64,000 bases of DNA. It comes from Salinisphaera sp. LB1. GTDB taxonomy: Bacteria > Pseudomonadota > Gammaproteobacteria > Nevskiales > Salinisphaeraceae. Shown piece by piece: positions 44,009 through 62,841 of this stretch. The notes beneath the pieces are model-generated. The model made no database searches. It saw only the letters and a program-made list of their open reading frames with translations, and had not been told where the DNA came from. Positions within the stretch are counted from its first letter, which is position 1. Every line of letters begins with the position of its first letter. Location of the stretch: the NCBI RefSeq assembly GCF_003177035.1, contig NZ_CP029488.1, positions 2,480,001-2,544,000 on the forward strand. Direction: 5' to 3'. The translations under genes and the position numbers were made by a program.

Positions 44009-44959
44009 TTAGCGCAACACGCCGTCGCGATACAGTCGCCACAGTACCGGCCAGGCATAGATCAGCGGGTGGCGCCGCAGCTGCGGGGTGACCTCGATCG
44101 CGACCCCGGTGTGCCGTTCCAGTTTCCAGGCGGCGTAGTCGATTGCGTTGTCGAAGGTGAAGCAGGCCTTGGCCAGCCGCAGGACGGAAACCGCTCGTCC
44201 CGCGGGCGCCCGCAGCCGCCAGGCGCGAAGGGCGTGTCGGCGTTGGGCGGCGCTTGGCCGCCAGGCAATACGACCGTCCGCGCATTGCTCGGTCTCGAAC
44301 GCCAGATGGGCGCGTGCCGTGTGCAGACGGCGGGCGTATTCGGGGCGATCGTGTTCGGCGATGCGCAAGCCGCGTTCGCCCCCCTCGGTGCGCAACTCGC
44401 CGCCGTAACTGAGCATGAGTGCGGCGCCAAACGCTTCGGCGGGCAGCATGGGAGGGGGCAGTGCCGGCAGGCTCTGGTCGAGCAGGGTGATCACGGCCTG
44501 GCCGCAACAGGCGCGAACCGCCTGGCGAATGCCGTCATTGGCGGCGTACACGATGGCCACGGGTTGCGCGAACCGCCCCCAGAGACTCGACAGCCAGCCG
44601 CGGGCGACGCCGTCGCGCAAATCGTCGAGGGTGACTACCGCGTACTTGCAGCGCAGTGTCGTCGCCGCGGTCCCGCACTCCAGGTAATAGACATTTGGTG
44701 GCAACAGTCGGTTGGCCGCGGCAGCCGCGCGACTGGCGTGCGCCGCGCGGTAGCGATCGACCACCACATAGAAATCGACCAGCCCCGCGGTCGGGTCGCC
44801 GCCGCGCAGGCAGGAGCCGTAGTACACGATCGCGCGCACGGCTTGTCGATGACGCCGTCGCACCGCCTCGATCAGCGGCCGGAGCGCGTCGACCTGCCCG
44901 CTTTCGCACGGGCCGGCTATGGCCTGGAGGGCGGCGGCATCGGCACGTGGTTGATCCAT
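44009..44959 (-). CDS. Nucleotidyltransferase-fold protein of the sphingolipid head-group module
   Basis: 316 aa, cytoplasmic. Residues 42-70 read VRAIVYYGSCLRGGD followed by LVDFYVVVD: the GS signature with an acidic D-x-D-like strand of pol-beta-type nucleotidyltransferases, here most like the phosphatidate cytidylyltransferase TAM41 pattern (YGS...D.vvvD). A conserved-looking LPPNVYYLE follows at about 85-93. I infer a lipid-phosphate nucleotidyl transfer, for example activation of a ceramide phosphate or a head-group donor. It is the last gene of a minus-strand operon, 7 bp after the lipid kinase. As I recall, Caulobacter's ceramide-phosphoglycerate genes also pair a DAG-kinase-type enzyme with nucleotidyltransferase-like partners. 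Confidence 0.65.
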   Translation of the reverse strand: MDQPRADAAALQAIAGPCESGQVDALRPLIEAVRRRHRQAVRAIVYYGSCLRGGDPTAGLVDFYVVVDRYRAAHASRAAAAANRLLPPNVYYLECGTAATTLRCKYAVVTLDDLRDGVARGWLSSLWGRFAQPVAIVYAANDGIRQAVRACCGQAVITLLDQSLPALPPPMLPAEAFGAALMLSYGGELRTEGGERGLRIAEHDRPEYARRLHTARAHLAFETEQCADGRIAWRPSAAQRRHALRAWRLRAPAGRAVSVLRLAKACFTFDNAIDYAAWKLERHTGVAIEVTPQLRRHPLIYAWPVLWRLYRDGVLR

Positions 44960-44966
44960 GGCGCGA

Positions 44967-45968
44967 TCAGAGACTCAGAAAGGGAACATGGCCGGCCACG
45001 GACAGGCGGACCGGGCCGTCGTCGGGGCGACTGCGATAAAATTCGCCGTCGACGATGAATCCGTCGTCGAACGCCAGTCGGAGCTCGTGGCTGTTGTGGC
45101 TGACGTAGCCGGCGCCTTCCGCGGCCTTGAAGCCGCGCGACCAGCCACGCGCGACAAAGGGCAGGCGCAGCAGGAAGCGCGAGGCATTCTGGCTGATCGT
45201 GGTCCAGGCGATCGGGGCCTGTTCGCGGCCCCAGAACGGGTGGAAACTCAGGACCAGCCGATCGAGGGTCGAAGCCACCATCAGCAAGGTGGGATCGTCC
45301 ACTGTGCGGCCTGCGTCGTCGACCAGGCGAATCCGGGTCGGGGCGAAATGCCGGCGGTCCTGCAGGGCTACGGATTTGAGGAAGCGCAGGAACGCCAGGC
45401 CCGGGCCGGCCTCGCCCCGAAGGCCTTTGCTATGCAGGTTCTGCTGGGTGTACTGAACGGCGTGGTGCACCGCGCCGACACCGAAAAACATCCCGCATAC
45501 GGCGGGTTGGCTGTCCGAGGCCTGGATGCGCAGCACGGCGCGATCGGCGATCGTGGCGCGGCTTTGCCGGCCGCCCGAGGCCGCCCAGTCGAGCAGGGGC
45601 TGCCAGCCGCGACGCCGTACATCGACGAAACCCACGTCGCGGGCGGTCATGTTGGTGCTGCCAGTGGGCACGAGGGCGAGTACCGGCAGCGTATCGAAAA
45701 GATCGTCGAGCAACACATGACTGAGCACGCACTGCACGGTGCCGTCGCCGCCGGCCACGGCCAGTGTATCGACGCCGAGCGCGGCCAGCTCGGTGACCGC
45801 GCGCGCGATATCTTCGGGTTGCTTGGCCTCGATGGCGGGGACGTCGGTCGGAACCGGATGTCGCCCCCAGCGCCGCCGGTGGCGACCGCTCTGCGAGTTG
45901 TAGATGATGCCCAGTCGCCGCGGCGCACGCTGCGGATATGACGCGGACAGACCTTCGGTTTCGGCCAT
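44967..45968 (-). CDS. Diacylglycerol-kinase-family lipid kinase, probable ceramide kinase (CpgB-like)
   Basis: 333 aa. DAGK catalytic domain: LGIIYNSQSGRHR near 19-31, the nucleotide-binding GGDGT at 73-77 (VAGGDGTVQCVLSHVL), and PTGSTNMTARDVGF near 101-114. This family phosphorylates diacylglycerol, sphingosine or ceramide. With ceramide synthase encoded in the same operon, ceramide is the most likely substrate, as for CpgB of Caulobacter (family knowledge plus context). The start at 45968 is the first ATG after the NTP transferase, 78 bp away. Confidence 0.78.
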   Translation of the reverse strand: MAETEGLSASYPQRAPRRLGIIYNSQSGRHRRRWGRHPVPTDVPAIEAKQPEDIARAVTELAALGVDTLAVAGGDGTVQCVLSHVLLDDLFDTLPVLALVPTGSTNMTARDVGFVDVRRRGWQPLLDWAASGGRQSRATIADRAVLRIQASDSQPAVCGMFFGVGAVHHAVQYTQQNLHSKGLRGEAGPGLAFLRFLKSVALQDRRHFAPTRIRLVDDAGRTVDDPTLLMVASTLDRLVLSFHPFWGREQAPIAWTTISQNASRFLLRLPFVARGWSRGFKAAEGAGYVSHNSHELRLAFDDGFIVDGEFYRSRPDDGPVRLSVAGHVPFLSL

Positions 45969-46046: not shown

Positions 46047-46853
46047 TCAGCTGCCGGCGCGCAGAATCGCCTCGACCTGGCGCAGGTCGGCGACTGAATC
46101 AACGTCGACGGCGGCATTGGGCTCATTCAGTAGTATCGGCCCGGCCTTCAGGCCATGGCGTTTCGACAGCCCGTTGAAGGCAGCCTCGAGTGACAGTGCG
46201 CGCGCGGCATAGCGTGCCAGCGCGACCCAGCCGAGCATGCCGGCGACGATACGCGCGGGATGCTTGCGTTCGTTCTCGACCTGGCGCCAGCGTTCGACCA
46301 GGCGGCGCCCGGCCGGGCGGTACACGGCGAACAGGTTGCAGCCGCAGTAGGCGCCTGGGCCCAGCCGGGTCGCGGTGCGCCGGCTGGCGGGATAGGCCGC
46401 CCGGACGCGCGCGTAATCCACCAGGCCCACGCCGAGATCGAGATCGCGATCCGGTCGGCACATGGCGGCGACCATGTCGGGGGTGAGTAATGCGTGGTCG
46501 GCCGTAGTGATGAGCGCCGGCCGCCCGACGGCAATGGTGTCGAGCGCGGCCAGGGCGCTGGCCACGGGTGAGAGCCCGGGCGCGATCCAGCGCGCATCGG
46601 CCGCGGCGATCAGCGCGCGCAATGCGGGGTTGGTATCGACGATGGCGGTGTCCGGGCCGACCACGCGGCATTCGCTGATGTCGTCGCAGCGCGCCAGCGT
46701 ATCCAGTACCCGGCCCAGCAACGGCTGGCCGGCCACGTCGGCCATTGCCTTGCACCCGGCGCCGGTGGCGCGGGCCACGGGATCGTCGGCGCCGCGGTCG
46801 CCGGCGAGGACGATGGCAACCCAGCCGCGAGTATCCGCGTCCTGCCCGGTCAC
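46047..46853 (-). CDS. MobA-like NTP transferase domain protein
   Basis: 268 aa. GT-A/NTP-transferase fold: WVAIVLAGDRG...KAMADVAGQPLLGRVLDTL at the N-terminus matches the G-x-G...K-x-x-x-x-x-G-x-P-L signature, with ALITTADHALLTPDMV near 119-134 as the metal-binding D-x-D-like region. The GTG start at 46853 overlaps the stop of the acyltransferase gene (GTGA), giving tight coupling. It probably transfers a nucleotide to a phosphorylated small molecule that becomes part of the lipid head group; the substrate cannot be read from the sequence. MobA itself (molybdopterin guanylylation) is less likely given the neighbours. Confidence 0.7.
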   Translation of the reverse strand: MTGQDADTRGWVAIVLAGDRGADDPVARATGAGCKAMADVAGQPLLGRVLDTLARCDDISECRVVGPDTAIVDTNPALRALIAAADARWIAPGLSPVASALAALDTIAVGRPALITTADHALLTPDMVAAMCRPDRDLDLGVGLVDYARVRAAYPASRRTATRLGPGAYCGCNLFAVYRPAGRRLVERWRQVENERKHPARIVAGMLGWVALARYAARALSLEAAFNGLSKRHGLKAGPILLNEPNAAVDVDSVADLRQVEAILRAGS

Positions 46854-47998
46854 AGTGCCTTCCGGTAGATCCGATAGGTCTTGTAAGCGCTGGCGCCCAG
46901 ACGCTCGATGATGTCGCGCATGCCCTTGTTGTCCTCGAGAATCCACGACAGCTCACAACCGGTGGCGCCGTGCTTGCGCAGGCTGGTCTGCATGGCAGCG
47001 ATTACACCGAAGGCCAGGGCGGCGCCGAGCGGGCCATCCTGGTAGGCCTGGCGCACGCCCATCAATGGTACCCGGGAAGTCTTTGGGAACCGCACCTTGA
47101 GCCGCCACAGCAGTTTCGCCACCGCGACCGGAGATAGGCGCCCGTCCAGATCGCGCGCGGCCTCGTTGAGGTTGGGCAGGCCGACGATGAAGGCGGCCGG
47201 CGTTCCGTTCACCTCGGCGATCTGTACCAGGTCGTCGGCGATCAGCAGTTTGAGTGTATTGCCCATGTCGCGGAATTCGGCCTCCGTGAACGGCACGAAT
47301 CCCCAGTTGTTGGCCCAGGCGTCGTTGAAGATATCGCGCAGGGTGTCGAGTTCTTCGGTATAGCGCGAGCGGTCGATTGGGCGGATGCGCATGCGGGATT
47401 GATAGCGCGCGAGCAGCCGCTGCATCGCCTTCGGGTGCTCGAAGGCCAGGTCGACCCAGTAGGCGAGCGTGTCCACGGCCTTGCTGTACCCCTCGGCTTC
47501 CACGTGGGGCGCGTAGTAGTCGCGGCCGTGGCCCATCATCATCATGGGGGGCGTGTCGAAACCGTCCACGAGCAGGCCGCATTCATCGTTGATGGTCAGA
47601 TTGAAGGGGCCGTGGACGGCGTCCATGCCGCGCTCGGCCAGCCATGTTTCGGCCGTCGCGAGCAGGCCGGCGAAGACCCGGGGGTCGTCGATCGCCTCCA
47701 GCATGCCGAAGTAGCCGACCCGGTCGCCGTGTTCGCGTTCGCGCAACGGATCGATCTGGGCGGTGATGCGGCCGACCGGCCGCCCGTCGATCCACGCCAT
47801 CCAGGCCTGCCAGTCCAGGTGCTCGAACGCAGGATTGTGCTTCGCCGACAGATGCATGCGCCGTTCGATATGCAGTGGCGCGCGCCATTCCTTGCGATCG
47901 GCATAGATCGCGTGCGGCAGGCGTATGAAGCGCTTGAGATCGCGGGTCGACGCGATCGGCGTGATGGTGACGGAGGAGGATTGTTCGCTAACTGCCAT
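46850..47998 (-). CDS. bcerS: GNAT-fold N-acyltransferase, probable bacterial ceramide synthase (bCerS)
   Basis: 382 aa from the ATG at 47998. The family looks like the YghO/bCerS group: N-terminal LKRFIRLPHAIYADRKEWRA, GRITAQIDPLREREHGDRVG, GPFNLTINDECGLLVDGFD near 143-161, FVPFTEAEF, and C-terminal CELSWILEDNKGMRDIIERLGA, which is the duplicated acetyltransferase fold ending. In Caulobacter such a protein N-acylates 3-ketosphinganine or sphinganine to give (oxo)ceramide. First gene of the minus-strand operon; diverges from the FAAL gene across a 535-bp spacer. Assignment as ceramide synthase rests on family pattern plus the spt/cerR neighbours. Confidence 0.8.
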   Translation of the reverse strand: MAVSEQSSSVTITPIASTRDLKRFIRLPHAIYADRKEWRAPLHIERRMHLSAKHNPAFEHLDWQAWMAWIDGRPVGRITAQIDPLREREHGDRVGYFGMLEAIDDPRVFAGLLATAETWLAERGMDAVHGPFNLTINDECGLLVDGFDTPPMMMMGHGRDYYAPHVEAEGYSKAVDTLAYWVDLAFEHPKAMQRLLARYQSRMRIRPIDRSRYTEELDTLRDIFNDAWANNWGFVPFTEAEFRDMGNTLKLLIADDLVQIAEVNGTPAAFIVGLPNLNEAARDLDGRLSPVAVAKLLWRLKVRFPKTSRVPLMGVRQAYQDGPLGAALAFGVIAAMQTSLRKHGATGCELSWILEDNKGMRDIIERLGASAYKTYRIYRKAL

Positions 47999-48533: not shown

Positions 48534-50315
48534 ATGATCAAGCCAACGCCCACGGAACAGTGGCTATCGATGCGTCGGGGCGATTTCGCCTCGCTTGGAG
48601 ACGCGCTCGACTACGCGGGCGAAGGCGAGACGGGTTTCAATTTCTATACCGGTCGCGGTGAATTGTCCGACGTGCTCAGCTATGCCGATCTGCGCCGCCG
48701 AGCGCGCGATACGGCGCAGCGGTTGATGTCGCTCAATCTGGGCGAGGGCGCGCGTGTTGCGCTCGTCGCGGATACCGTGCCCGGTTTCATGGTGTGTTTC
48801 TTCGCATGCCAGTACGCTGGCTATGTACCTGTCCCGCTGCCGGTGATCGTGGGTCTGGGCAGTCGGGATGCCTACATCCGCCAGCTGCGTTCGCTGCTTC
48901 AGGGGTGTCATGCCGACGTGGCCCTGGCGCCCGAGGCGTTCATGAGTTTTCTCGAGTCCGCCGCCGATGGCATGACGCTGTCGTTTCTCGGCAGTTACGA
49001 CTCCCTGGATACGTTGTCGCCGGCCCAGGCTGAATGGCCGGCGTCGGACGCCACCCGTACGGCCTATCTGCAATACACCTCGGGCAGCACGCAGTTTCCG
49101 CGCGGGGTAGTGATCTCCCAGGCCCAGGTGATGCAGAATCTGTCCAGTATTCTGGAATTGGGCGTGCAGATGCGCGCCGACGATCGTCTGGTGTCGTGGC
49201 TGCCGCTGTACCACGACATGGGGTTGGTCGGTTTCATGCTGGCCGCGCTGACCTCGCAACGATCGGTCGATTATCTGGCGACGCGCGATTTCGCGATGCG
49301 TCCGCGTCAGTGGTTGTCGCTGATCAGCCGCAATCGCGGCACGATTTCGTTCAGCCCGTCGTTCGGCTATGAGCTGTGCTCGCGCCGTATCCGGCACAAT
49401 GCCGACGATTTCGACCTGTCGAGCTGGCGGATTGCCGGTGCCGGCGCGGAAACCATTCGGCCGGACTCGCTGGATCGTTTCGCCGATACTCTGGCGCCCG
49501 CCAAGTTCGATCGCCGGGCTTTCGTGGCGTGCTATGGCATGGCCGAGTGTTCGCTGGCGATCAGTTTTGCGCCGCTGGACCGAGGGTTGGCGGTTGATCA
49601 TGTCGACGCCGAGGCGTTGGCTGAATCCGGGGCCGCTGTGCCGGCCTCGTCCGAAAGTGATCAGCGGGCGGCACGTTTCGTCGAGTGCGGCGAAATCCTG
49701 CCCGAATACGATTTCGAGATTCGCGGCGACGCGGGTGAGGCGCTGGGTGAGCGCCAGGTTGGCACCGTGCATGTGCGCGGCCCGAGCGTCATGTCCGGCT
49801 ACTTCGAACAGCCCGAGGAGAGCGCGCGCGTGCTTTCGGATGACGGCTGGCTCAATACCGGCGACCTGGGTTATCGCATTGGTCGCCGCATCGTGATTAC
49901 CGGTCGCGCCAAGGATCTGATCATCGTGAATGGCCGCAACATCTGGCCGCAGGATCTCGAGTGGCTGGCCGAGTCCCAGCCCGAGCTGCGCCCGGGCGAT
50001 GCACTGGCCTTCGCGGCGCCGTCCGAATCCGGCAGCGATGGCGCGGTGCTGGTCATCCAGTGCCGGGTGCGCGATCCGCGGGATCGCGAGGCCTTGATCA
50101 AGCGGCTGGAAGGGCTGATGCGTCGCGAGTGTGGCGTCGAGTGTCTGGTCGAGGCGGTCGAACCGCATACCCTGCCGCGAACGTCGTCGGGCAAGCTTTC
50201 GCGGGCCGGCGCACGTCGTGACTATATCGAGCGGCTGGCCGAGCGGCTCCAGCGTCGACAGGCGACTTCGTCCGCCGAGGCGGCTGTGGTCGAAAGCGAT
50301 CGACAGGCCGGCTAG
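48534..50315 (+). CDS. Fatty acyl-AMP ligase / acyl-ACP synthetase
   Basis: Adenylate-forming enzyme, 593 aa. The start at 48534 follows ACAGGT; the frame is open further upstream without family similarity. Motifs: P-loop [18 protein letters not shown] near 181-198, [15 protein letters not shown] (FAAL hallmark), [40 protein letters not shown] (FAAL-type hinge) and C-terminal Lys in [10 protein letters not shown]. It most likely activates a fatty acid and loads the ACP encoded 1 kb downstream, supplying acyl-ACP to serine palmitoyltransferase, as in the acyl-ACP synthetase/ACP/Spt sets of Alphaproteobacteria. First gene of the plus-strand operon. Confidence 0.85.
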
Positions 50316-50321
50316 AGTCTC

Positions 50322-52706: not shown

Positions 52707-52765
52707 GCGTCCGTGAGCCGCCCCCTCCCGCCGTTTCTGCGCGCCGATAGCGGGTGTCGGAGCCC

Positions 52766-53545
52766 ATGAGCCGGCCCCGTCCGGCAAGTCCGGAGGTGAC
52801 GCTGATAACAGGCGCCTCGCAGGGGATTGGCTATGCTCTGGCCCTGGAATTGGCGCGGCGTGGCGATACGGTCGCCGTTCTGGCGCGTCGCCGGGCCGAA
52901 CTGGATGAACTGGTCCGGCGCATCACCGTCGAGGGCGGGCGTGCACTGGCGGTGACCGCCGACGTGACCGACCGGGCCGCACTGGCTGCGGCGGCGGATC
53001 GGGTGCGGGCCGAGTTCGGCCCGATTACGCGTCTGGTTGCCAACGCCGGCGGCGGATCCTCGACCCACGTGCGGCACTACGACGCGCAGGCGGTGGAAGA
53101 CACGGTTCAGCTCAATTTGATGGGGACGGCCAACGCCGTCGGCGTGGTTCTCGACGACATGCTCGCCGCCGGGCACGGGCATCTGGTGGCCATGGGCAGC
53201 CTGGCGGCGATGCGGGGATTGCCGACCGCGGCCGCGTACTCGGCGGCCAAGGCGGGCGTGGCGAACTTCATGGAAAGCCTCGCTATTGATCTGCGTCATA
53301 GTGGCATCGACGTAACACTGTTAGAACCAGGGTTCGTGGCCAAGCCAGATTCGAAAAAGCGTCGAGGTCGAATGCGCATGCCGTTGTCTATCGCCAGCGC
53401 CCGGATGGCAACGGCCATCGTCGCCCGTCGGCGCTACTGGCGCGGCCCGACTGGTCTGGTATTTGCCGCCAACATACTGCGATTGCTACCTTTTTCGGTC
53501 TACAGTCGAGTGCTGGCCGGGCGAGGTCGGAGCGCCGATTCGTGA
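52766..53545 (+). CDS. Short-chain dehydrogenase/reductase, possible 3-ketosphinganine reductase
   Basis: Classical SDR, 259 aa from the ATG at 52766 (GGAG 6-9 nt upstream; a GTG at 52754 is also open). Cofactor site LITGASQGIGYAL, NAGGG, catalytic Ser region GSLAAMRG and AAYSAAKAG (Tyr-x3-Lys). The C-terminal 40 residues are hydrophobic and basic, suggesting membrane association, as in eukaryotic KDSR. By position after spt it may reduce the 3-keto group of the long-chain base or of ceramide; this would duplicate the job proposed for CerR, so another substrate is possible. Confidence 0.75.
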   Translation: MSRPRPASPEVTLITGASQGIGYALALELARRGDTVAVLARRRAELDELVRRITVEGGRALAVTADVTDRAALAAAADRVRAEFGPITRLVANAGGGSSTHVRHYDAQAVEDTVQLNLMGTANAVGVVLDDMLAAGHGHLVAMGSLAAMRGLPTAAAYSAAKAGVANFMESLAIDLRHSGIDVTLLEPGFVAKPDSKKRRGRMRMPLSIASARMATAIVARRRYWRGPTGLVFAANILRLLPFSVYSRVLAGRGRSADS

Positions 53546-53578: not shown

Positions 53579-54340
53579 ATGAGTGCTGATTCGTCCGGTA
53601 TCGCCGGATTTCGACGCAAGGCCGTCAAGCGTTTCGGCAAGAAGCTGTTCCGCGGCACGCTGATGGATTTTCTCTCCGCCCAGTCCAAAATCCCGGACGA
53701 GCCGGTGCTCGACAACGCCTTGTTCCCCTGGGCCGAGGGCGTACGCCTGCAGTGGACGGCCATGCGTGACGAACTGGATCAACTGTTGGAGCGGCGCAAC
53801 GCGCTGCCCAGCTTCCAGGAAATCAGCCCGGATCAGTCACGCATCTCCACTGACGATCAGTGGAAGACGTTCTGGCTGCACGGGTTCGGTGAGCGCATGG
53901 AGTTCGGCCGCAAGCTGTGTCCCGCCACATCCGCCGCACTCGATCAGATCCCCGGTCTGTCGAATGCCTTCTTCTCGATCCTCGGACCCGGCAAGCATAT
54001 TCCGCGTCATCGCGGTGTGACCAAGGGACTGGTCCGCTGCCATATCGGGCTGCGGGTGCCCGATTCGTCCGAGCCATGTCTGATTCAGGTTGAGGACGTA
54101 GACTGCCACTGGAAGGAAGGCGGTATGTTCTTTTTCGATGATACCTATCGGCATGAAGTCTGGAACAAGACGGACGGCGAGCGCGCTGTCCTGTTGTTCG
54201 ATATCGAGCGGCCCATGGGGCTGCCGGGCCGGGCCGTGTCGCGGGCCATGATCGCGGCGCTCAAGCGCACCGCGTATTTTCGCGATGCCATGGCCAACCA
54301 GCGGGCATGGGAAGCGCGCTACCGGGCGGCCACGGCCTAG
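53579..54340 (+). CDS. Aspartyl/asparaginyl beta-hydroxylase family (LpxO-like) lipid hydroxylase
   Basis: 253 aa, 2-oxoglutarate/Fe(II) enzyme of the AspH/LpxO type. The family uses two histidines for iron: His155 in LVRCHIGLRV and His192 in RHEVWNKTDGERAVLLFDIERPM; HRGVTKG at 144-150 precedes them. A basic N-terminus (RRKAVKRFGKKLFRG) may bind the membrane. LpxO-type enzymes 2-hydroxylate acyl chains of lipid A or ornithine lipids; here hydroxylation of the ceramide acyl chain or base is the natural guess. Preceded by GCGAGG before the ATG. Confidence 0.78.
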   Translation: MSADSSGIAGFRRKAVKRFGKKLFRGTLMDFLSAQSKIPDEPVLDNALFPWAEGVRLQWTAMRDELDQLLERRNALPSFQEISPDQSRISTDDQWKTFWLHGFGERMEFGRKLCPATSAALDQIPGLSNAFFSILGPGKHIPRHRGVTKGLVRCHIGLRVPDSSEPCLIQVEDVDCHWKEGGMFFFDDTYRHEVWNKTDGERAVLLFDIERPMGLPGRAVSRAMIAALKRTAYFRDAMANQRAWEARYRAATA

Positions 54341-54402: not shown

Positions 54403-55341
54403 ATGGCGCGATTCTATTTTTCGGGCCGGCGTAGTCACGAAGTCGGCACATGGCGACGTCGCTTGATGTGGTGGAGTGAGGCGGCGTTGCTGAAGAGCCT
54501 CATCGGCCTGTTGCGCGTACTGCCGTTGAAAACCGCATTTGCGTTCGGCGCAGTGCTCGGGGAAGGCTTCGGGCGTCTGTCGCCGCGGGTCGAGAAGGTG
54601 CGCCGCAACCTGCGCGTGGTGTTCCCGGAGGCCGGCGGCGAGGAGCTGGACCGGGTTACCCGTGCGTCGTTTGCCAATGTCGGCGTGGCCATGGCCGAGC
54701 TGGCCAATCTCGACCGGTTGTGGCGCGATCGCGATGAGCGCATCGAGTTCAATGTGCTGCCCGGCGCCCACGTGCCGCGCCGCGACCGGCCGAGCGTGTT
54801 CGTGACGGCGCATTTCGGCCCGTGGCAGCTCACACCGTTGATCGGGCGCTATTACGACGTCCCGCTCCCGGTGATCTATGCCCCGGAACAGAACCCCTAT
54901 GTCGATCGGACACTGAATCGCCTGCGCGCGGCCTTTGCCAATCCGCTGGTCTCGCGTGATGGCGGCATGCGCATGTTCATGCGCTCGTTGTCGCGGGGGG
55001 AGTCGATCGGCATGACCGTTGACACCCGTCTGGACAGCGGTGAAGTGGTGTCGTTCTTCGGGCAACCGGCGATGACCAACACCGCGCCGGCACGACTGGC
55101 GTTGCGCTTTGATTGCGATTTGGTGCCGATACTGGCCGAGCGCCTGCCCGGCGGGCGGTTTCGTGTGAACATTCACCCCCCGATCGTGCCGAGCCAGCCC
55201 GAGGCCAGCCGCGACGACAAGGCGCTGGACATGAGTCGCCAGATCAACGCCCTGTTCGAAAGCAAGATCGCGCGGCAGCCAGACCAGTGGCTCTGTCTCA
55301 GGCGGCGCTGGCCGGAGACGGTCGAGCAGCAGCACGCTTAG
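54403..55341 (+). CDS. LpxL/HtrB-like acyltransferase with altered active-site motif
   Basis: 312 aa, lysophospholipid-acyltransferase superfamily, lipid A late-acyltransferase branch: membrane-associated N-terminus (ALLKSLIGLLRVLPLKTAF), VRRNLRVVFPEAG, GMTVDTRLDSGEVVSFFGQPAMTNTAPARLAL and RLPGGRFRVNIHPPI. The catalytic HX4(E/D) motif reads HFGPWQ at 137-142, so the acidic residue is Gln. It may be inactive, use another carboxylate, or have a different substrate. It lies between the AspH-like gene and the ELM1 genes, 62 bp after the former. Confidence 0.75.
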   Translation: MARFYFSGRRSHEVGTWRRRLMWWSEAALLKSLIGLLRVLPLKTAFAFGAVLGEGFGRLSPRVEKVRRNLRVVFPEAGGEELDRVTRASFANVGVAMAELANLDRLWRDRDERIEFNVLPGAHVPRRDRPSVFVTAHFGPWQLTPLIGRYYDVPLPVIYAPEQNPYVDRTLNRLRAAFANPLVSRDGGMRMFMRSLSRGESIGMTVDTRLDSGEVVSFFGQPAMTNTAPARLALRFDCDLVPILAERLPGGRFRVNIHPPIVPSQPEASRDDKALDMSRQINALFESKIARQPDQWLCLRRRWPETVEQQHA

Positions 55342-55395: not shown

Positions 55396-57825
55396 GTGGC
55401 AATTCGAACCAAACGGGTGGTTGAAACGTTCCTGGCGGGGGATCTGCGGCACGCAGAATCCGTTCAGACCCGCCCTTTATGTCTGAAGCTGCCGCCCAAG
55501 CCGGGCGTCACACCCAGCGATAAACCGGCCGTGCGCATTTTTCTTGGCACCGAGGCCGTGCAGTTTCGTGCCGAACGCGCCTTCGTGTGGTCGGTTGAGC
55601 GGGTCCGTGATCCGTCGCGGACCTACGAAATCCATCTGATGAAGGATTTCGCCGGTTTCGAGCGGCGGCTCTGGCTGACGGGCTTCACCAATTACCGCTT
55701 CATGATCCCGGAGCTGGCCGGTGGCCGTGGGCGCGCGATCTATAACGACGCCGATCAGATCTATCTGCGTGACCCGGCCGAACTGTTCGATCTGGACATG
55801 GGGGATGCGGGCGTGCTGTCGATCAACGACCGCGATACGTCGGTCATGTTGATCGACTGCGCGAAGATGATCGATCTGTGGAATGGCACCACCGCCCGCA
55901 AGGTCGGCAATCGCGAGCTGGAAAAACGCATGCGCGAGGCCGGATTGTGGGGCGATCTGGATAACAGCTGGAATGCGCGCGACGCCGAGTACGTGCCCGG
56001 TGAGTCCGGGCTGGTGCACTACACCACCATCCATAGCCAGCCCTGGCGCCCGACGCCACAGGACTTCGTCTATCGTGCGAACCCGGCCGGCGAGATCTGG
56101 TCGAGCATCGAGCGTGAAGCCGATGCCGCCGGTTTTCAGGTGTTCGGCCCGCGTCATCCCACGCCGGATTTCGCCGCGCGGGCGTCGCAGCGGCGCTTCG
56201 AGAGTCCGTCCGCGGCGCGCCTGGCCGATTTCAAACGCCTGATCGAGGATGCGGAGGCGGGCTCGATGGCGTATTACGGATACGATCGCCCCGAAAGCCT
56301 GGCCACGCTTGGCGATATGCCCGCCCGCATGGCGCGGCCGGAAAGCCTGGCCGACGGCGCGGCGCGTGAGCCGGTCGATGTGGTGGCCGCCGATGGGCTG
56401 GCGCAGCTCCCGGATCCGGACGTGGCGTGGGTGCTTGATTCGCTGTTCGCTCAGGCGCGTCGTGCGGTGATTGTTGCCGTGGCCATGGATGATAGCGCGC
56501 AGCGCGCGACTCCCGCCGATCCGCTCTGGTGGTATCAGCAGCTCGAGGCAGCCGGTCGGCGCGCCCCGACCCGGCATTGGCGCCTGGTCGTACGCAAGCC
56601 GCGCCTTGCATGTGCCCCGAAGGTATGGCGCTGGTCCGGCGGGGCGCTGCTGTCGACCACGCCGCGGGTATGGGCGCTGCTGCACTACAAGACGGGGCAT
56701 CGCAGTCAGACACTGGGCCTGGCCGAAGCGCTGGGCTGGCGCGTCGAGCGCAAGGAAATCGTGCGGGCGCCGCTGCGTCATGGCCTGGCGATGGCGCGCG
56801 ATGCGGTCGGTCTGGGCGGCCCGGGGTGGCCGGGCGACCTGAAGGCCCCTTGGCCGGACGTGATCGTGGCATCGGGATGGTTGCCGGCGGTGGCAGCGCG
56901 CGCCGTGCGCAAGCGCAGTCGAGCCGCCTCGCGGCTCGTTCTCATGGGTCGCCGCGGCGGCCGTGTCGGCGAAACCCAGGATATCGCGGTGGTCTGCCGT
57001 CATTTCCGCGTGCCGCCCAGTCCGCGTCAAATTGAAACGATCCTGCCGCCGAACAAGGTGGCCGCGAACCAACTCGCGGCCGCGCGCGAGCGCTGGCCCG
57101 AGCTGTTTCCCGCCGATCGTACGCCCCGGGTGGTCTGGCTGGTCGGCGGCGATAACGCACAGCACGCGCTGGATGCCACCACGGCGGGCGCACTCGCCGC
57201 ACGCATTCAGTCGCAGACGACCGCGGCCGGCGGGGCGTTGGCGGTGTTGACCAGTCGTCGCACCCGGGGCGAAGCGGCTGAGGCGATACGCGCCCGGCTG
57301 GACGAGGCGGCGCAGTTTGTGCCCTGGCAGCCCGCAGGTGAGGATGAGAATCCCTATATCGGGTATCTGGCTGCGGCCGATATCCTGGTCGTGACCGGCG
57401 AGTCGGAATCGATGATTGCCGAAGCCGTGGCCGCCGGCAAACCGGTCTATATCGCACCGCTGCCCGATGCCCGGCCAAATCTGCGGCGGCGTGTGGCAGA
57501 CTGGGTTGTACGTCAGGCCGAGCGTGATCGCTTCAATGCGCGCGGTTCGCGCCGGCCCCAGGAGGGGCTGCAGTATGCCTGCGCGCGTCTGGTCGATCGG
57601 CGCGTGTTTCTGCCGAGGCGCGATATGGCGGCCTTGCACGAATCGTTGGTGGCCCACGGCGTGGCGCGCATGCTTGATGACGCGCTCGAGTGCTGGCGGC
57701 CGTCGGCCTGGCACGAGACCGAATGGCTCGCCCAGCGTATTCGCGCCATGTTGCGAATTCCGGATGCCACCGGCCAAGGGGTCGATGTCGAAGCCGAGCC
57801 GATTGCGGCCATCCATGCCGGCTAG
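55396..57825 (+). CDS. GT8-like glycosyltransferase / methyltransferase-like / ELM1 fusion
   Basis: 809 aa from GTG 55396 (AGAGGTAGAG upstream). Residues about 45-260: GT-A-type domain with IFLGTEAVQF and the DxD at 118-120 (YNDADQIYLRDPAELF), typical of GT8-like enzymes. Residues about 300-402 resemble the second half of a class I methyltransferase (GLAQLPDPDVAWVLDSLFAQARR...WWYQQLEAAG) without a SAM-binding loop. Residues about 415-790: ELM1/GtrOC1 (DUF1022) domain, VWALLHYKTGHRSQTLGLAEAL, WLVGGDNAQHALD, LTSRRTRGEA and VVTGESESMIAEAVAAGKPV, a GT-B-like fold. It probably glycosylates a lipid or core-sugar acceptor; no function is assigned with certainty. Confidence 0.7.
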   Translation: MAIRTKRVVETFLAGDLRHAESVQTRPLCLKLPPKPGVTPSDKPAVRIFLGTEAVQFRAERAFVWSVERVRDPSRTYEIHLMKDFAGFERRLWLTGFTNYRFMIPELAGGRGRAIYNDADQIYLRDPAELFDLDMGDAGVLSINDRDTSVMLIDCAKMIDLWNGTTARKVGNRELEKRMREAGLWGDLDNSWNARDAEYVPGESGLVHYTTIHSQPWRPTPQDFVYRANPAGEIWSSIEREADAAGFQVFGPRHPTPDFAARASQRRFESPSAARLADFKRLIEDAEAGSMAYYGYDRPESLATLGDMPARMARPESLADGAAREPVDVVAADGLAQLPDPDVAWVLDSLFAQARRAVIVAVAMDDSAQRATPADPLWWYQQLEAAGRRAPTRHWRLVVRKPRLACAPKVWRWSGGALLSTTPRVWALLHYKTGHRSQTLGLAEALGWRVERKEIVRAPLRHGLAMARDAVGLGGPGWPGDLKAPWPDVIVASGWLPAVAARAVRKRSRAASRLVLMGRRGGRVGETQDIAVVCRHFRVPPSPRQIETILPPNKVAANQLAAARERWPELFPADRTPRVVWLVGGDNAQHALDATTAGALAARIQSQTTAAGGALAVLTSRRTRGEAAEAIRARLDEAAQFVPWQPAGEDENPYIGYLAAADILVVTGESESMIAEAVAAGKPVYIAPLPDARPNLRRRVADWVVRQAERDRFNARGSRRPQEGLQYACARLVDRRVFLPRRDMAALHESLVAHGVARMLDDALECWRPSAWHETEWLAQRIRAMLRIPDATGQGVDVEAEPIAAIHAG

Positions 57826-58852
57826 CGGGCAGGCCACAGAGCCGCCGCGGGTATGGGTGCTGCTGGGCGAGGGCGCCGGCGGGAACGCCCAGATGATCGC
57901 GCTGGCGGAGGCGCTCGGCTGGCCCTACGAGACACGCCAGTTGTCGTGGAACCGGCTCAATCATCTGCCCAACCCGATCATCGGCGCCCGGGCCTGCACG
58001 CTCGACCGGGCCGCCGATACGCTGGCCGCGCCATGGCCCGATCTGGTGATAGCGGCTTCGCGCCGCTCGGCGCCGATCGCGCGCTGGATCAAGAAACAAT
58101 CGGGCGGGCGGACGAAACTCGTGCATCTGCTGCATACGCAGATGCCATTGCATCATTTCGACCTGGTGGTCACGCTGGCCCAGTTCCGTGTGCCGGATGC
58201 GCCCAACGTGCAGCGCAACACGCTGCCGCTCAACGTGGTGGCGCCCGAGCGGCAGGCCGAGGCTGCCGATCGCTGGCAGGGCCGGCTGGCCGCGTTGCCG
58301 CGCCCGTGGATCGCGGTGCTGGTCGGTGGCAACAGCTCAAGCTACAGGCTGGATGCCGCCACCGCGGCGCGCCTTGGCCGGCAGGCCGATGCCGCAGCGC
58401 GCGAGGCGGGCGGGAGTCTGCTGGTCACGACCAGCCGGCGTACCCCGACCGCGGCAGCCGAGGCCCTGGTGGCAGCGATTGACGTGCCGGCGGAGATCTA
58501 TCGCTGGCGATCGGGCGATGCCGACAACCCATACGGCGCGTTCCTGGCGCTCGCGGATCGCTTCATTGTCACCGGCGACAGCGCCTCGCTGCCGGCCGAG
58601 GCTGCGGCCACCGGCCGGCCCGTGCGTTTGTTCGAATGGCCTGCGAAAAAACAAGTCAGGCGTGGATCCGGCACGCTCGCACGCTGGCATCAGCGGCTGG
58701 TGTATTGGGGCTGGTTGAAGCCTCGCCGCGATTTCGGCGCCTTTCATGCCACCCTCCGGGCGGCCGGTTTGGTCGATAACGCGACCCCGGCCGCCGTGCC
58801 GGACGACATGGCGGCTACCGTGGCTCGCATCCAGGCGCTGTTCGCGAATTGA
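57815..58852 (+). CDS. ELM1/GtrOC1-family putative glycosyltransferase
   Basis: 345 aa from the ATG at 57815, overlapping the upstream stop by 11 nt. DUF1022 signatures: VWVLLGEGAGGNAQMIALAEALGW, DLVIAASRRSAPIARWI, VLVGGNSSSYRLDAATA, LVTTSRRTPTAA and IVTGDSASLPAEAAATGRPV. It is a paralogue of the C-terminal part of the preceding protein. Mitochondrial fission factor ELM1 belongs to this family by sequence, but bacterial members are thought to be sugar transferases. Confidence 0.8.
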   Translation: MPASGQATEPPRVWVLLGEGAGGNAQMIALAEALGWPYETRQLSWNRLNHLPNPIIGARACTLDRAADTLAAPWPDLVIAASRRSAPIARWIKKQSGGRTKLVHLLHTQMPLHHFDLVVTLAQFRVPDAPNVQRNTLPLNVVAPERQAEAADRWQGRLAALPRPWIAVLVGGNSSSYRLDAATAARLGRQADAAAREAGGSLLVTTSRRTPTAAAEALVAAIDVPAEIYRWRSGDADNPYGAFLALADRFIVTGDSASLPAEAAATGRPVRLFEWPAKKQVRRGSGTLARWHQRLVYWGWLKPRRDFGAFHATLRAAGLVDNATPAAVPDDMAATVARIQALFAN

Positions 58853-58907: not shown

Positions 58908-59633
58908 GTGATGCAATATCTTGACTTCGAACGACTGTCCCAGATCGAAACCAGCGAGTTCCGGAACGCGTATCCCTATCCCTGGCTCAATCCGGCGGCA
59001 CTGTTGACCGACGCGGCCTACGACAAGCTGTACGAGACCCTGCCGACGGTCGACCAGATGGTTCCCAGCTTCGGCGTGAAACGCTCGCACGGGCAGAAGC
59101 CCCATGACCGCTACGCGCTGGAATACGACGAAAGCCTGGATATTGATCCAGCCTGGCATCAGTTCGTCGCGGAACTGAAGAGCGACCAGTACCACGCGTT
59201 TATCAAGCGAATGTTCGGTCGCGGCCGTTTCAAGCTCAATTTCCATTGGCACTATGCCCCGACGGGCAGCTCGGTGTCGCCGCATTGCGATGCCACACGC
59301 AAGCTGGGTTCGCATATTTTCTATTTCAGCCCGCCGAGTGTCTGGAAGCCGGAATGGGGCGGCGATACCGTCATTCTCGATGACCACGGGCGCTTCAGCC
59401 GCAAGTCGGCACCGGATTTTTCGGATTTCGATCAGGCGTTCGCCGGCGAGAGCATCGGCAACTACAGCCTGCTGTTTCAGCGCCAGGAACGCTCCTGGCA
59501 CGGGGTGCGCGAGATCAATTGCCCCGAAGGCATGTATCGCAAGGTTTTCATCGTGGTGATCAACGATCGTCTGCGCGCCGGCATCCGGCGGCTCAAGGGA
59601 CGCCTGGCGGGGGAAGCGCGCCGGGATGTCTGA
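58908..59633 (+). CDS. 2OG-Fe(II) oxygenase (prolyl-4-hydroxylase-like)
   Basis: 241 aa (GTG 58908 or ATG 58911). Jelly-roll dioxygenase with HxD at 126-128 (VSPHCDATRK), distal His198 (RSWHGV) and Arg of the 2-oxoglutarate site in MYRKVFIVVIND. NFHWHYAPTGSSVSPHCD is typical of the P4H-like group. Substrate unknown; in this cluster a sugar or lipid moiety is as likely as a protein. It overlaps the sulfotransferase-like gene by 8 nt. Confidence 0.8.
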   Translation: MMQYLDFERLSQIETSEFRNAYPYPWLNPAALLTDAAYDKLYETLPTVDQMVPSFGVKRSHGQKPHDRYALEYDESLDIDPAWHQFVAELKSDQYHAFIKRMFGRGRFKLNFHWHYAPTGSSVSPHCDATRKLGSHIFYFSPPSVWKPEWGGDTVILDDHGRFSRKSAPDFSDFDQAFAGESIGNYSLLFQRQERSWHGVREINCPEGMYRKVFIVVINDRLRAGIRRLKGRLAGEARRDV

Positions 59634-60642
59634 GCCGGTACGACGCGGCGACGACATCGGCGCGGCAGCGCCGCCGCCCGATCCGGAGCGCGCCACGGTC
59701 GTCGTGGTACTGGGCGCTGGTCGGAGCGGCACTAGCGCGATCACGCGCGGCCTGGCCGCGCTCGGCGTCGATCTCGGCGATAAGCTGCGCGCGGGCAGCG
59801 GCAAGAATCCGACCGGGTTTTTCGAAGACCTGGACTGTCTGGCGATTGCCAAGAAGCTCAAGCAGCGGCTCGGTATTCGCGGTCACAGCCTGCGTCTCAT
59901 CGATGAGGCCGAGTGGCACAAGGCCGGGCTGCAATCGCTCGTCGCCGAGGCCGCCGGGCTGTGGCGGCCGCGCTTCGGTGCCACGCCGCTCTGGGGCTAT
60001 AAATACGCGCGTACCTTGCGCACGCTGCCCTTCTGGGCGCAGTTGCACGATGCACTCGATCTGGACGTGCGCTATCTCGTCGCGCTGCGCAACCCACTGT
60101 CGGTGGCCCGGTCGCGCGCCCGGATCAACCCGCAGCGCGGCCGTCAGGTCTGGTCCGACCTGGAGTGGCTGGTCAATGTCGTTCCGTATTTCGCTACCGT
60201 CATGGAGCGGCCGTGCGCGGTGGTGGACTTCGACCGGATGATGGCCGCGCCGCAAGCCCAGCTCGCCCGGGTTGCCCGCGATCTGGGATTGCCGACAGGC
60301 GCGGCCGAGCGTGCCGGCATCGAAGAGTACGCCACCCGGTTTCTACAGCAGGACAAGCCCAGCACGCGGTTCACACGCGACGACCTGTGGGCCGACCCGC
60401 AAGTCAACCGCTGGACCGCCGAGGGCTACACCTTGTTGAACAAGGTGGCGAACGACGAACTGCGCCTCGACGATGCCGAGTTCGTCGACCGATGGTCGCA
60501 CGTGCACGCTGCGGTGACCGACCTCGGCCCGCTGTTGTCCGAATTCGATTACCTGCGTGGCCAACTCGTGCGCGCAGGTTGGAATCCGGCGAGCCCTTTC
60601 GAGCAGGCACGACAGGTCTGGCGGGATCTGCGGAGTCGTTAG
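59626..60642 (+). CDS. Sulfotransferase-fold family protein
   Basis: 338 aa. N-terminal PAPS-type P-loop VVVLGAGRSGTSAITRGLAALGV with GAGRSGTS at 30-37, GKNPTGFFED (GyfE-like segment), and the 3'-phosphate-binding RNPLSVARSRARINPQR near 157-173. Bacterial proteins of this type often modify surface glycans or lipids. With its neighbours it could sulfate the lipid head group; transferase activity is inferred only. Confidence 0.75.
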   Translation: MSEPVRRGDDIGAAAPPPDPERATVVVVLGAGRSGTSAITRGLAALGVDLGDKLRAGSGKNPTGFFEDLDCLAIAKKLKQRLGIRGHSLRLIDEAEWHKAGLQSLVAEAAGLWRPRFGATPLWGYKYARTLRTLPFWAQLHDALDLDVRYLVALRNPLSVARSRARINPQRGRQVWSDLEWLVNVVPYFATVMERPCAVVDFDRMMAAPQAQLARVARDLGLPTGAAERAGIEEYATRFLQQDKPSTRFTRDDLWADPQVNRWTAEGYTLLNKVANDELRLDDAEFVDRWSHVHAAVTDLGPLLSEFDYLRGQLVRAGWNPASPFEQARQVWRDLRSR

Positions 60643-61128
60643 CTGCCCAGCAGGTCGCCGGGCTGAAAAACCAGTGGCTCCGGACTCCATGCCGCTTGAG
60701 CGTGAAAATCGAACGGGTTCCGTCCCTTTAACGTCTTGAGTTTTGGCCTCCAGTCGGGAGCGATGACAGACGGGGCGCGACCGCACTCGTCCGGATGTGC
60801 CCCGCTGGCGGCCTGTCTTTCGGTTGCTGCCGGATTTTTCGTTGATCAGGCCCGGGCGGGCGCGCCCAATATTCAGGGTAGCCGGCTCACTTTTTGGCCC
60901 CCAGACAGCATGCGAGTCGCCGTTCCCGGATTTCCCGGAAACGAAGTCCTCTGTATTTGATGTACCGGCGCTTGGAAGCGCTGGTGTTTCGGCATTGCCG
61001 CGGCAGTGCAATGCAGGCCATGTCTTCCGGGTTAAACTACCCGGCAGTTGCAAGGGACGAATCGACGGATGCCGTGATGGGCAAATCTGTATGTACAATA
61101 CAGATATTATGCTAGTAGGTTTATTTTT
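60643..61128. other. 486-bp spacer before the ABC exporter: hairpins and a palindrome
   Basis: No credible gene. A 10-bp stem with a 2-nt turn (ACCGGCGCTT/AAGCGCTGGT, 60964-60985), a 6-bp inverted repeat CCGGGT/ACCCGG (61027-61032, 61039-61044) and the palindrome at 61085-61105 are the only structures. The last 60 bp are AT-rich and contain TATTAT (61105-61110) as a likely -10. A 9-codon ATG frame (MLVGLFLCE) ends just past the transporter start. Confidence 0.45.
61085..61105. promoter_or_regulatory. Perfect 8-bp inverted repeat upstream of ABC exporter
   Basis: ATCTGTAT, 5-nt spacer, ATACAGAT, directly adjoining a TATTAT hexamer and 23 bp from the transporter start. Typical geometry for a dimeric repressor. 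The CTGT...ACAG core has a 9-nt spacer, one more than the LexA consensus. Confidence 0.4.
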
Positions 61129-62841
61129 GTGCGAATAATTCAAGACCTTTTCAAACGCTACCCGGGACAGTGTCTGATCGTTTGGGTCTGTCTGGTGGTG
61201 TCGAGCATTGCTGAAGGTCTGAGCCTGTCGACACTGCTGCCGGTGCTGTCGATTGCCACCGGCAATTCGTCGCACATGGTGAACGGCAAGACTCAGGATT
61301 TTCTCAGCCAGGGACTGCACTGGCTGTCCATCAGTCCCACGGTTGCGGCCATGATCGGTATCGTGCTGGTGGGGCTGGTGTTCAAGGCCGTACTCACCCT
61401 CTTGGCCTATCGGCAGGTCGGCTATACCGTGGCGGCGATCGCCACCGAGGGGCGGTTGAAGTTTCTGCGTGCGCTATCGTCCTCGCGCTGGGAATACTTC
61501 CTCAGTCAGCGTACCGGCCGACTGTCGAACACAATTTCGACCGAGGCCTCGAACAGTGCCGATGCCTTTCAGAGCATGGCCAATCTGGTCTCACTCGCCT
61601 CGCAATCGGCCGTGTTCCTGTCGGTTGCATTGCTGATCAACTGGAAGGTCGCTGTGCTGGCCATGCTCATTGGCGCGGCTATCTTCGGCCTGCTCAAGAT
61701 CATGGTGTCCATATCGCGCGATGCCGGTGCGCGCCAAACGAATTCGTTCCAGCAACTGATGGCATTGTTGACCGATTCACTGGCTTCGCTCAAGCCGTTG
61801 AAGTCGATGGCGAGAGAAGGCCAGATCGATCGCATGCTGGAGCGCCAGACACGTGAGCTGAACAGCGCCCTGCGGACCCGGGTCATGGCCCAGGAGGCGC
61901 TCAAGGCACTCCAGGAATTGCTGATCGGGGCGGTTCTGGTCGCCGGCGTCGGGGCTTCGCTGCTGATCTGGAAGTTGCAGCTGTCCGAGATCATGGTGCT
62001 CACCATTGTGCTTGCGCGCATGCTGACGCGTTTGAGCAAGGTGCAGCAGGAATACCAGAAGATGGCATCGCGTGAGGCGTTTTACTGGGCCATGTACGAG
62101 CAGATCGAAAATGCCCAGGCGGCTCGGGAGATGCCGTTCGGCAGCCGTCAGCCGAGCCTGGAGCAGGGCGTCACGCTGGAGGACGTGGGTTTCGGCTACC
62201 AGGGCAAGCAGGTTCTCAGCGATATCAATCTGCGGATCCCGGCCGGCGAGTTCACCACCCTGATCGGGTTTTCCGGTGCCGGCAAGACCACGCTGGTCGA
62301 TTTGATCATCGGGCTGTTGCGTTCCGACGAGGGCCGGATTCTGATCGATGGCGTGCCGATCGACGAGATCGACATCCAGGCCTGGCGTTCGATGATCGGG
62401 TATGTGCCGCAGGACACGATCCTGTTGCACGACACGATTTACAACAATGTAGTGGTCGGCGACGAGAGCCTGTCCGAGGAGGCCGCCATCGAAGCACTCA
62501 AGCGCGCCGGTGCCTGGCGCTTCATCAGCGCTCTTGCCGACGGTATTCACACCAATGTCGGCGAGCACGGCGGGCGGTTGTCGGGCGGTCAGCGTCAACG
62601 CGTGGTCATTGCCCGTGCGCTGGTGCATCAGCCCCGCCTGCTCATACTCGACGAGGCAACCAGCGCGCTCGATCCGGAAACCGAGGCGGCGGTGAGCGCC
62701 ACGCTGGCGGATTTGGGCAAGGATTACACGATCCTGGCGGTGTCCCACCGCGCCGCTTTGACCGAACGTTCGAACCGGGTGTATCGCCTGGATCAGGGGA
62801 CGGCGCGTCTGGATACGGTGCCGACTCGCGCCAGCGCCTGA
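61129..62841 (+). CDS. MsbA-like ABC exporter (fused membrane and ATPase domains)
   Basis: 570 aa, GTG start at 61129. Six membrane segments in residues about 15-300 followed by an ATPase domain: Walker A GFSGAGKT (380-387), GYVPQDTILLHDTIYNNV, signature RLSGGQRQRVVIARAL and Walker B LLILDEATSALD. Type IV exporter fold as in MsbA, half-transporters of lipid or glycan flippases. As the last gene of the accessory block it is a good candidate to flip the finished sphingolipid or glycolipid. It ends 16 bp before the convergent dciA. Confidence 0.88.
   Translation: MRIIQDLFKRYPGQCLIVWVCLVVSSIAEGLSLSTLLPVLSIATGNSSHMVNGKTQDFLSQGLHWLSISPTVAAMIGIVLVGLVFKAVLTLLAYRQVGYTVAAIATEGRLKFLRALSSSRWEYFLSQRTGRLSNTISTEASNSADAFQSMANLVSLASQSAVFLSVALLINWKVAVLAMLIGAAIFGLLKIMVSISRDAGARQTNSFQQLMALLTDSLASLKPLKSMAREGQIDRMLERQTRELNSALRTRVMAQEALKALQELLIGAVLVAGVGASLLIWKLQLSEIMVLTIVLARMLTRLSKVQQEYQKMASREAFYWAMYEQIENAQAAREMPFGSRQPSLEQGVTLEDVGFGYQGKQVLSDINLRIPAGEFTTLIGFSGAGKTTLVDLIIGLLRSDEGRILIDGVPIDEIDIQAWRSMIGYVPQDTILLHDTIYNNVVVGDESLSEEAAIEALKRAGAWRFISALADGIHTNVGEHGGRLSGGQRQRVVIARALVHQPRLLILDEATSALDPETEAAVSATLADLGKDYTILAVSHRAALTERSNRVYRLDQGTARLDTVPTRASA

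Follow-up and report, generated by a model that had tools for sequence, protein, structure and literature searches.

Ceramide genes between lpxC and dciA-secA

The stretch of DNA analysed here, referred to throughout as the window, comprises 64,000 nucleotides of the genome of Salinisphaera sp. LB1 (NZ_CP029488.1, positions 2,480,001 to 2,544,000), a salt-loving bacterium whose genome is a single contig of 4.14 Mb. At positions 44009-62841 it carries a block of sphingolipid genes, bounded on one side by lpxC (42854-43801, plus strand, read from the sequence) and on the other by dciA (62858-63400, minus strand, PF05258), beyond which lies secA (from approximately 63500). Two divergent gene groups fill this interval. 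The minus-strand group holds bCerS-like, MobA-like, DAGK-like and Tam41-like genes, while the plus-strand group runs in the order FAAL, CerR, acyl carrier protein (ACP), serine palmitoyltransferase (SPT), SDR, OlsC/LpxO-like, LpxL-like, GT8-like/ELM1, ELM1, 2OG-oxygenase-like, sulfotransferase-like and ABC exporter. A first-pass annotation of the same DNA had described a ceramide locus inserted between lpxC and dciA-secA. This observation was confirmed, in its coordinates and in its content, since all five genes known for dihydroceramide synthesis (aasR, cerR, acpR, spt and cerS) are present; the interpretation attached to it was partly supported. The locus is a ceramide island of approximately 19 kb.

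SPT scored 609 bits against the NCBIfam equivalog NF047599 (cut-off 500), whereas it remained under the cut-offs of the NCBIfam models for KBL (310 bits, cut-off 460) and BioF (309 bits, cut-off 426). Its closest solved relatives are likewise SPTs (2x8u, 431 bits, versus 233 bits for the KBL structure 1fc4), and in a tree the 46 SPT rows separated from two paralogues of the same genome (support 98, starred) on very long branches. Assignment of this pyridoxal phosphate enzyme to KBL or BioF was rejected on all three grounds, in agreement with its earlier designation. The gene adjoins those for an acyl-ACP synthetase and a dedicated ACP. The synthetase, an AasR-like FAAL (48534-50315, plus strand), reached 782 bits against NF006624 (cut-off 600) and matched PF00501, the 82-residue AcpR-like ACP (51268-51516, plus strand) matched PF00550 (2e-8), and a profile search identified CerR as an Epimerase-family protein. 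Proteobacterial SPTs are held to use a dedicated acyl-ACP made by AasR (PMC11324152).

The bCerS-like N-acyltransferase (46850-47998, minus strand) matched no Pfam or NCBIfam family at an E-value of 0.001, and a PDB search with it returned nothing of use. It is placed by its tree and by its 55-59% identity to many proteobacterial homologues among the matches listed. The A. vinelandii (Azotobacter vinelandii) ceramide locus is published as containing cerS (PMC11324152), and the window protein is 57% identical to its positional counterpart there and shares a common tree with it. The placement of this GNAT protein in the bCerS clade, as first proposed, therefore holds by proxy, the reference being the A. 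vinelandii protein encoded at the cerS position, not the Caulobacter protein. Judged by these genes, the locus is predicted to encode dihydroceramide synthesis.

A single CerR-SPT frame with a nested ACP gene

CerR and SPT occupy one open reading frame of 794 codons (50322-52706, plus strand), in which CerR spans residues ~1-310 and SPT residues ~398-794, joined by a linker of ~80-100 residues, with no in-frame stop. The frame starts at a GTG (50322) two codons past an in-frame stop and stays open to 52706, the end of SPT. Because CerR begins at its own Rossmann motif immediately after that stop, there is no room for a signal peptide. The ACP gene lies wholly within this frame, in the part encoding the linker, offset by +1 from CerR and with its own ATG and stop. 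A reading of 50322-52706 as a read-through artefact was dropped. The first-pass annotation had missed the single frame with its nested ACP, as well as the Tam41-like, MobA-like and 2OG-oxygenase-like genes and the absence of CpgA and CpgD described below.

The same arrangement was found in 6/6 informative genomes of one Salinisphaera subclade, in which the single CerR-SPT frame measures 794-812 residues. Their linkers contain 94-112 residues when counted from CerR position 301, and 70-77% of these are polar, Gly or Pro. At the position expected for the SPT start codon the six genomes read CTG (window and G006), CCC (G002) or GTA (G001, G009 and G013), and none of them offers an ATG, GTG or TTG as SPT start between -60 and +3 nucleotides. 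A seventh member of the subclade (G010) is not informative, its contig ending before the CerR-SPT region, and the fused locus of S. hydrothermalis (L134) repeats a genome already counted and was left out of the six. Outside the subclade, 37 loci carry CerR and SPT on the same strand, those of the sister genomes G004, G005, G014 and G016 included, and none is fused (0/37): CerR ends at its own stop after 301-319 residues in all 37, and SPT has a canonical start in 36, the exception being locus L195. Since no CerR stop precedes the end of SPT in the six genomes, full-length CerR would be made only together with SPT, barring a frameshift or an early ribosome stop.

To gauge how often such a frame would be open by chance, random synonymous versions of ACP were generated with the protein and the codon usage held. 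The frame was open in 0.2-7.8% of draws per genome, or in 0.4-13% with a different codon table; the fused genomes are related and not independent. We infer that CerR-SPT is translated as one fused polypeptide. In the part of the ceramide literature that was checked no mention of a CerR-SPT fusion was met, although no search was aimed at the fusion and no absence from print is claimed. The CerR-SPT frame with its nested ACP goes beyond the published ceramide loci.

The arrangement bears on the order and cellular place of the ceramide steps, for which two models compete: reduction followed by N-acylation, or cytoplasmic N-acylation followed by the action of a periplasmic CerR (PMC11087976 and PMC11324152). 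In the Caulobacter work, mCherry and beta-lactamase fusions locate CerR in the periplasm but SPT and bCerS in the cytoplasm, and N-acylation comes before reduction (PMC11087976). The authors also note that the periplasm has no free NADH, and the NADH source for a periplasmic CerR is not known (PMC11087976, PMC11324152). A CerR-SPT protein must act where serine and acyl-ACP are found; thus, if the frame is translated as read, the fusion would put CerR in the cytoplasm with SPT, at least in the Salinisphaera subclade, contrary to the periplasmic CerR model from Caulobacter. The fused protein could still reduce an N-acylated product, so that the order of the steps is suggested, not settled.

Putative phospho-ceramide and decoration genes

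Three genes of the minus-strand group accompany bCerS. The first encodes a Tam41-like nucleotidyltransferase (44009-44959, minus strand) resembling CpgC/CC_1161, which scored just below the cut-off of PF09139 (8.8e-5, 22.4 bits, cut-off 24). The same family was matched by 8/17 of its aligned homologues, its profile matched the solved Tam41 structure 6ig2 (E 0.0019), and its predicted model has a pLDDT of 85 and a pTM of 0.83. CC_1161 is described in PMC10331486 as CDP-DAG-synthase-like and proposed to activate ceramide-1-phosphate, a role that fits the Tam41-like gene of the block, whose product probably activates ceramide-1-phosphate with CTP. Next to it lies a DAGK-family lipid kinase (44967-45968, minus strand), a CpgB-like candidate ceramide kinase, which matched PF00781 (DAGK_cat) at 47.8 bits (cut-off 23.6), upholding the family assignment of the first-pass annotation. 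Like CpgB as described in PMC10331486, it has GGDG but not the eukaryotic CxxxCxxC motif. In six Nitrosomonas loci (L174, L177, L184, L185, L188 and L191) the DAGK-like match falls within a 664-residue open frame, as if fused to its neighbour. The third gene encodes a MobA-like NTP transferase (46047-46853, minus strand; PF12804, 46 bits, cut-off 27), CC_1153-like by position, a homologue of which stands beside bCerS in 67/80 best named loci. These 80 are the best of at least 579 confirmed bCerS loci and not a census, and each was cut at 10 kb on either side, with many contigs shorter than that (45/80 exceed 20 kb), so that gene counts from them are lower bounds. Together, the Tam41-like CpgC and the MobA-like genes point to a phospho-ceramide locus.

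The remaining components of the CPG2 pathway were not found with it. CpgA, a CDP-alcohol transferase, is absent from the block: the genome has three CDP-OH_P genes, all outside it, and the three regions examined gave no match. For CpgD, a phosphoglycerate cytidylyltransferase, the window's genome yielded only a 45% match over 74 residues, and six other block-bearing Salinisphaera gave CpgD-like matches of 29-34% located away from the block. A second LptF/LptG pair is also absent from the window's genome, which has two LptF/G genes; G004 and G005 have four, with the LptF2/G2 pair between MobA and DAGK, and the pair is absent from the other genomes of family f1. CpgA and CpgD occur in 9/11 full-length best named loci that hold SPT, Tam41-, DAGK- and MobA-like genes together, the exceptions being S. 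hydrothermalis and L162.

Downstream of SPT, the plus-strand group continues with a series of putative decoration genes, in keeping with the earlier claim that the set is extended by glycosyl, sulfo, hydroxylase and exporter functions. An SDR-family reductase (52754-53545, plus strand; PF00106, 160 bits), for which a PDB search gave no solved relative at an E-value of 1e-25, is followed by an OlsC/LpxO-like acyl 2-hydroxylase (53579-54340, plus strand; PF05118, 1.5e-46) that scored 229 bits against the OlsC model NF052565 (cut-off 450) and 117 bits against the LpxO model NF033391 (cut-off 500). Next comes an LpxL-like acyltransferase (54403-55341, plus strand; PF03279, 148 bits, cut-off 22), a second copy beside the housekeeping LpxL. 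The LpxL-family motif HxxxxD/E has an acid at its last position. In the window the LpxL-like protein reads HFGPWQ, and six relatives share its Q, while G002 has T, G014 has E and G016 gave no match to the motif; without the motif acid the protein may be inactive or act in another role. Further along, an 809-residue protein (55396-57825, plus strand) combines a weak N-terminal GT8 match (16.5 bits, cut-off 24.3) with an ELM1 domain (PF06258, 182 bits at residues 434-701, cut-off 27); it is 58-86% identical in nine relatives, and its profile found nothing in the PDB better than E 0.19. A second ELM1 protein (57830-58852, start approximate, plus strand; PF06258, 214 bits, cut-off 27) precedes a 2OG-Fe(II)-oxygenase-like gene (58908-59633, plus strand), just below the cut-off of PF13640 (1.7e-5, 26.1 bits, cut-off 27), and a sulfotransferase-like gene (59626-60642, plus strand), below that of PF13469 (1.4e-4, 22.6 bits, cut-off 27). 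The latter may be a PAPS-dependent sulfotransferase; GxGRSGTS and RNPxxVxxS, which we take to be sulfotransferase motifs, are conserved between the window protein and nine full-length relatives. The group ends with a type-I ABC exporter of MsbA/PglK-like type (61129-62841, plus strand; PF00005 and PF00664 above cut-off), whose best other match in the genome is 32%. In the window, 486 bp lacking any obvious gene separate the sulfotransferase-like gene from the exporter gene, and the same interval in the relatives L121, L123, L128 and L036 holds strain-variable genes, by eye of the GT4, GT8 and asparagine-synthase families.

To our knowledge, little has been established about what ELM1-family proteins do in bacteria. 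Two are present in each of ten block-bearing genomes (a third row in G002 is a fragment of the same frame, and the contig of G010 ends before this part) and none in six block-less genomes. In 15/80 best named loci, spread over Gammaproteobacteria, Alphaproteobacteria and Desulfuromonadales, an ELM1 homologue is found no more than 10 kb from bCerS, and an OlsC/LpxO homologue occurs in 14/80. None of 17 lpxC-interval loci contained ELM1 (0/17), a weak control because only about three would be expected at the rate of the ceramide loci.

The Caulobacter crescentus CPG2 locus (CC_1168-CC_1152) and its A. vinelandii and Pseudomonas luteola counterparts share with the window FAAL/AasR, CerR, ACP, SPT, bCerS, the ceramide kinase and the Tam41-like and CofC/MobA-like genes, and A. 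vinelandii (L151) resembles it further in its divergent arrangement and in having ABC exporter and LpxO-like genes. The window differs from the CPG2 loci in lacking CpgA, CpgD and LptF2/LptG2, in its single CerR-SPT frame and in its location at lpxC, and it adds the SDR, LpxL-, GT8/ELM1-, 2OG- and sulfotransferase-like genes. In the locus of an Immundisolibacter sp. metagenome-assembled genome (MAG; L149), SPT is followed in the same order by a GT8-like/ELM1 gene and a 2OG-like region, but CerR and SPT are separate, a CpgD-like gene is present and lpxC is not. The pairing of CpgB- and CpgC-like genes with ELM1 and GT8 genes, in a locus that has neither CpgA nor CpgD, goes beyond the published ceramide/CPG2 loci. 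The right-arm genes that replace CpgA, CpgD and LptF2/G2 suggest a glycosylated, perhaps lipooligosaccharide (LOS)-like, ceramide; the strain-variable glycosyltransferase-like genes of relatives add to the bolder, LOS-like reading.

Probable acquisition of the island and its proposed product

Among relatives, bCerS is present in 9/14 genomes of the genus, 2/2 of genus g2 and 0/1 of g3 in the same family, and in 24/61 overall. The gene order from Tam41 to the sulfotransferase is repeated in 9/10 block-bearing relatives retrieved, the exception being G010, whose contig breaks off within the block, and is thus not due to chance. A search for lpxC detected it in 28/28 genomes, and the Tam41-like gene adjoins it in 10/11 block-bearing family genomes; in G002 (L225 and L226), lpxC and the Tam41-like end of the block lie apart, each beside unrelated genes, so that the left flank is rearranged. 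On the right, dciA-secA follows the exporter in 6/6 genus genomes whose contigs reach that far, and in the two g2 genomes the exporter, dciA and secA were not found in the next 14 kb. The block-less family genomes (6/6) show a clean empty site, with lpxC and dciA as neighbours and 0-51 bp between their stops. On a tree of lpxC and ftsZ, markers that both lie beside the block, at least three changes of presence are needed (a single gain together with at least two losses, or else multiple gains), and gain and loss cannot be told apart from it.

Within the order the ceramide genes do not share one history. In the Salinisphaeraceae, bCerS clusters with that of Pseudomonas, Azotobacter and Nitrosomonadaceae (95, starred), whereas that of family f2 of the same order groups with Alphaproteobacteria (95, starred), both in a quick tree without bootstrap. 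This split leads us to reject vertical inheritance within the order and indicates that the pathway was acquired by it at least twice. SPT is nearest to the Immundisolibacter MAG (87, unstarred), a grouping that the bCerS tree does not repeat. Base composition was set aside as a signature: at 65.7% GC the block is close to its left flank (66.5%) and so bears no trace of recent foreign origin. In the same data, the ceramide locus of a MAG titled Klebsiella pneumoniae (L156) groups with uncultured Gammaproteobacteria, and the title is probably wrong. The first-pass annotation had overstated the rarity of such loci in Gammaproteobacteria. A core ceramide locus in this class is not new, ceramide/CPG2 loci having been published for A. 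vinelandii and P. luteola (PMC11324152), and a bCerS profile matched 24/369 gammaproteobacterial genomes drawn evenly from the class.

The explanation we favour, and consider probable, is that the block is a horizontally acquired island of approximately 19 kb that would supply the cell envelope with a phospholipid, probably also a glycolipid, built on dihydroceramide, with CerR and SPT as one polypeptide in the cytoplasm. The genes, their order, their insertion and the open frame are observed; translation of the fusion, the activities and the lipid are what they would predict. According to this model, FAAL would load a fatty acid onto the island's ACP, SPT would condense the ACP-bound acyl chain with serine, and CerR and bCerS would carry out reduction and N-acylation, in an order left open. 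The CpgB-like kinase would then make ceramide-1-phosphate, and the Tam41-like protein would probably activate it with CTP, from where the route would depart from the published CPG2 path because CpgA and CpgD are absent. The GT8/ELM1 proteins would probably add sugars, the OlsC/LpxO-, LpxL- and 2OG-oxygenase-like proteins would alter the acyl part, charge may come from the sulfotransferase-like protein, and the ABC exporter would flip the resulting lipid. Within the subclade of the window, CerR and SPT would form one polypeptide with the ACP encoded in its linker, and both reactions would be cytoplasmic. A bolder version, which we put forward tentatively, is that selection has shaped a three-in-one gene, in which the fusion of cerR and spt lets a cytoplasmic CerR receive the SPT product directly and acp is overprinted in the linker so that carrier and fused enzyme are produced jointly. 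Reduction would then occur before or beside N-acylation in the cytoplasm instead of following it in the periplasm, and the whole would feed a self-contained pathway, inserted beside lpxC, for a ceramide-anchored, LOS-like sulfated glycolipid.

Several points weigh against the favoured explanation. The protein products and the lipid output are inferred from the genes; the assignments to the GT8, sulfotransferase, 2OG and OlsC/LpxO families fall short of curated cut-offs; and the published Caulobacter work, as cited above, has CerR in the periplasm and reduction after N-acylation. The CerR-SPT frame itself could be mostly a reading-frame coincidence, with free SPT made from a CTG start, either codon 3 or, in two genomes, a CTG that overlaps the stop of ACP, by coupling to the translation of ACP, and with the long CerR product tolerated. 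CTG is kept at SPT codon 3, the leucine of LFDKF, in all six fused genomes, stops are few in GC-rich DNA, and the equivalent frame over ACP is open by chance in 4/36 unfused loci with ACP, including that of the sister genome G005. Yet CTG makes up only 51-72% of leucine codons in the fused genomes, the open frame has a chance of 0.002-0.078 per genome (0.004-0.130 with the other codon table), every unfused locus keeps the CerR stop and nearly all a canonical SPT start, and in the six any full-length CerR is a fusion, so that we regard coincidence as unlikely.

The LpxL-, LpxO- and ELM1-like genes could also act on lipid A or LOS instead of ceramide. The block would then be a mixed envelope locus beside lpxC, in which the left arm and CerR-SPT alone make ceramide and the right arm (LpxL-, OlsC/LpxO-, ELM1-, GT8- and sulfotransferase-like and ABC genes) modifies lipid A/LOS. 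Ordinary lipopolysaccharide genes are kept in these bacteria, with waaA in 20/21 genomes (missing only from G007, 85% complete) alongside the housekeeping LpxL, and block-less Salinisphaera keep waaA with one LpxL-family gene, so that the LpxL-like gene of the block could be a second lipid A acyltransferase. Moreover, Acinetobacter baumannii requires the ELM1 protein 2903, encoded with LpsB in its LOS core locus, to build that core, and the authors of that study favour a glycosyltransferase whose activity is unproven there (PMC10936431). This PF06258-type protein, required for an envelope glycolipid, is likened to the window's by family name alone; it acts on Kdo2-lipid A, whereas the window ELM1 lies in a ceramide operon. 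That ELM1 and OlsC/LpxO homologues recur in ceramide loci of distant bacteria, that lpxC is absent from 79/80 best named loci (S. hydrothermalis being the one with lpxC near bCerS), and that gain and loss of the right arm tracks the ceramide genes within the family make such a division of labour improbable. We think it slightly less likely still that the pathway stops at plain ceramide phosphoglycerate (CPG), the lipid of Caulobacter mutants whose second step is blocked, with the extra genes for minor tailoring. The CpgB-, CpgC- and CC_1153-like genes are present and CpgA and CpgD, which are tied to CPG2, are absent, as this would require. However, a Caulobacter CC_1153 mutant accumulates CPG without CPG2 (PMC11324152), so that retention of a CC_1153-like gene without CpgA and CpgD implies another use for it, and every genome reaching that part retains two ELM1 proteins along with the block.

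The interest of the locus rests on the CerR-SPT frame with its nested ACP. It would be unusual for a conserved carrier gene to sit entirely within the reading frame of the very enzymes that it supplies, and the CerR-SPT fusion, having no space for a signal peptide, would offer a naturally occurring protein on which the order and location of the ceramide steps are directly testable. Beyond this, the combination of CpgB- and CpgC-like genes with ELM1 and GT8 genes, where CpgA and CpgD are lacking, points towards a class of sphingolipid headgroups not yet mapped in bacteria and towards a function for the ELM1 family.

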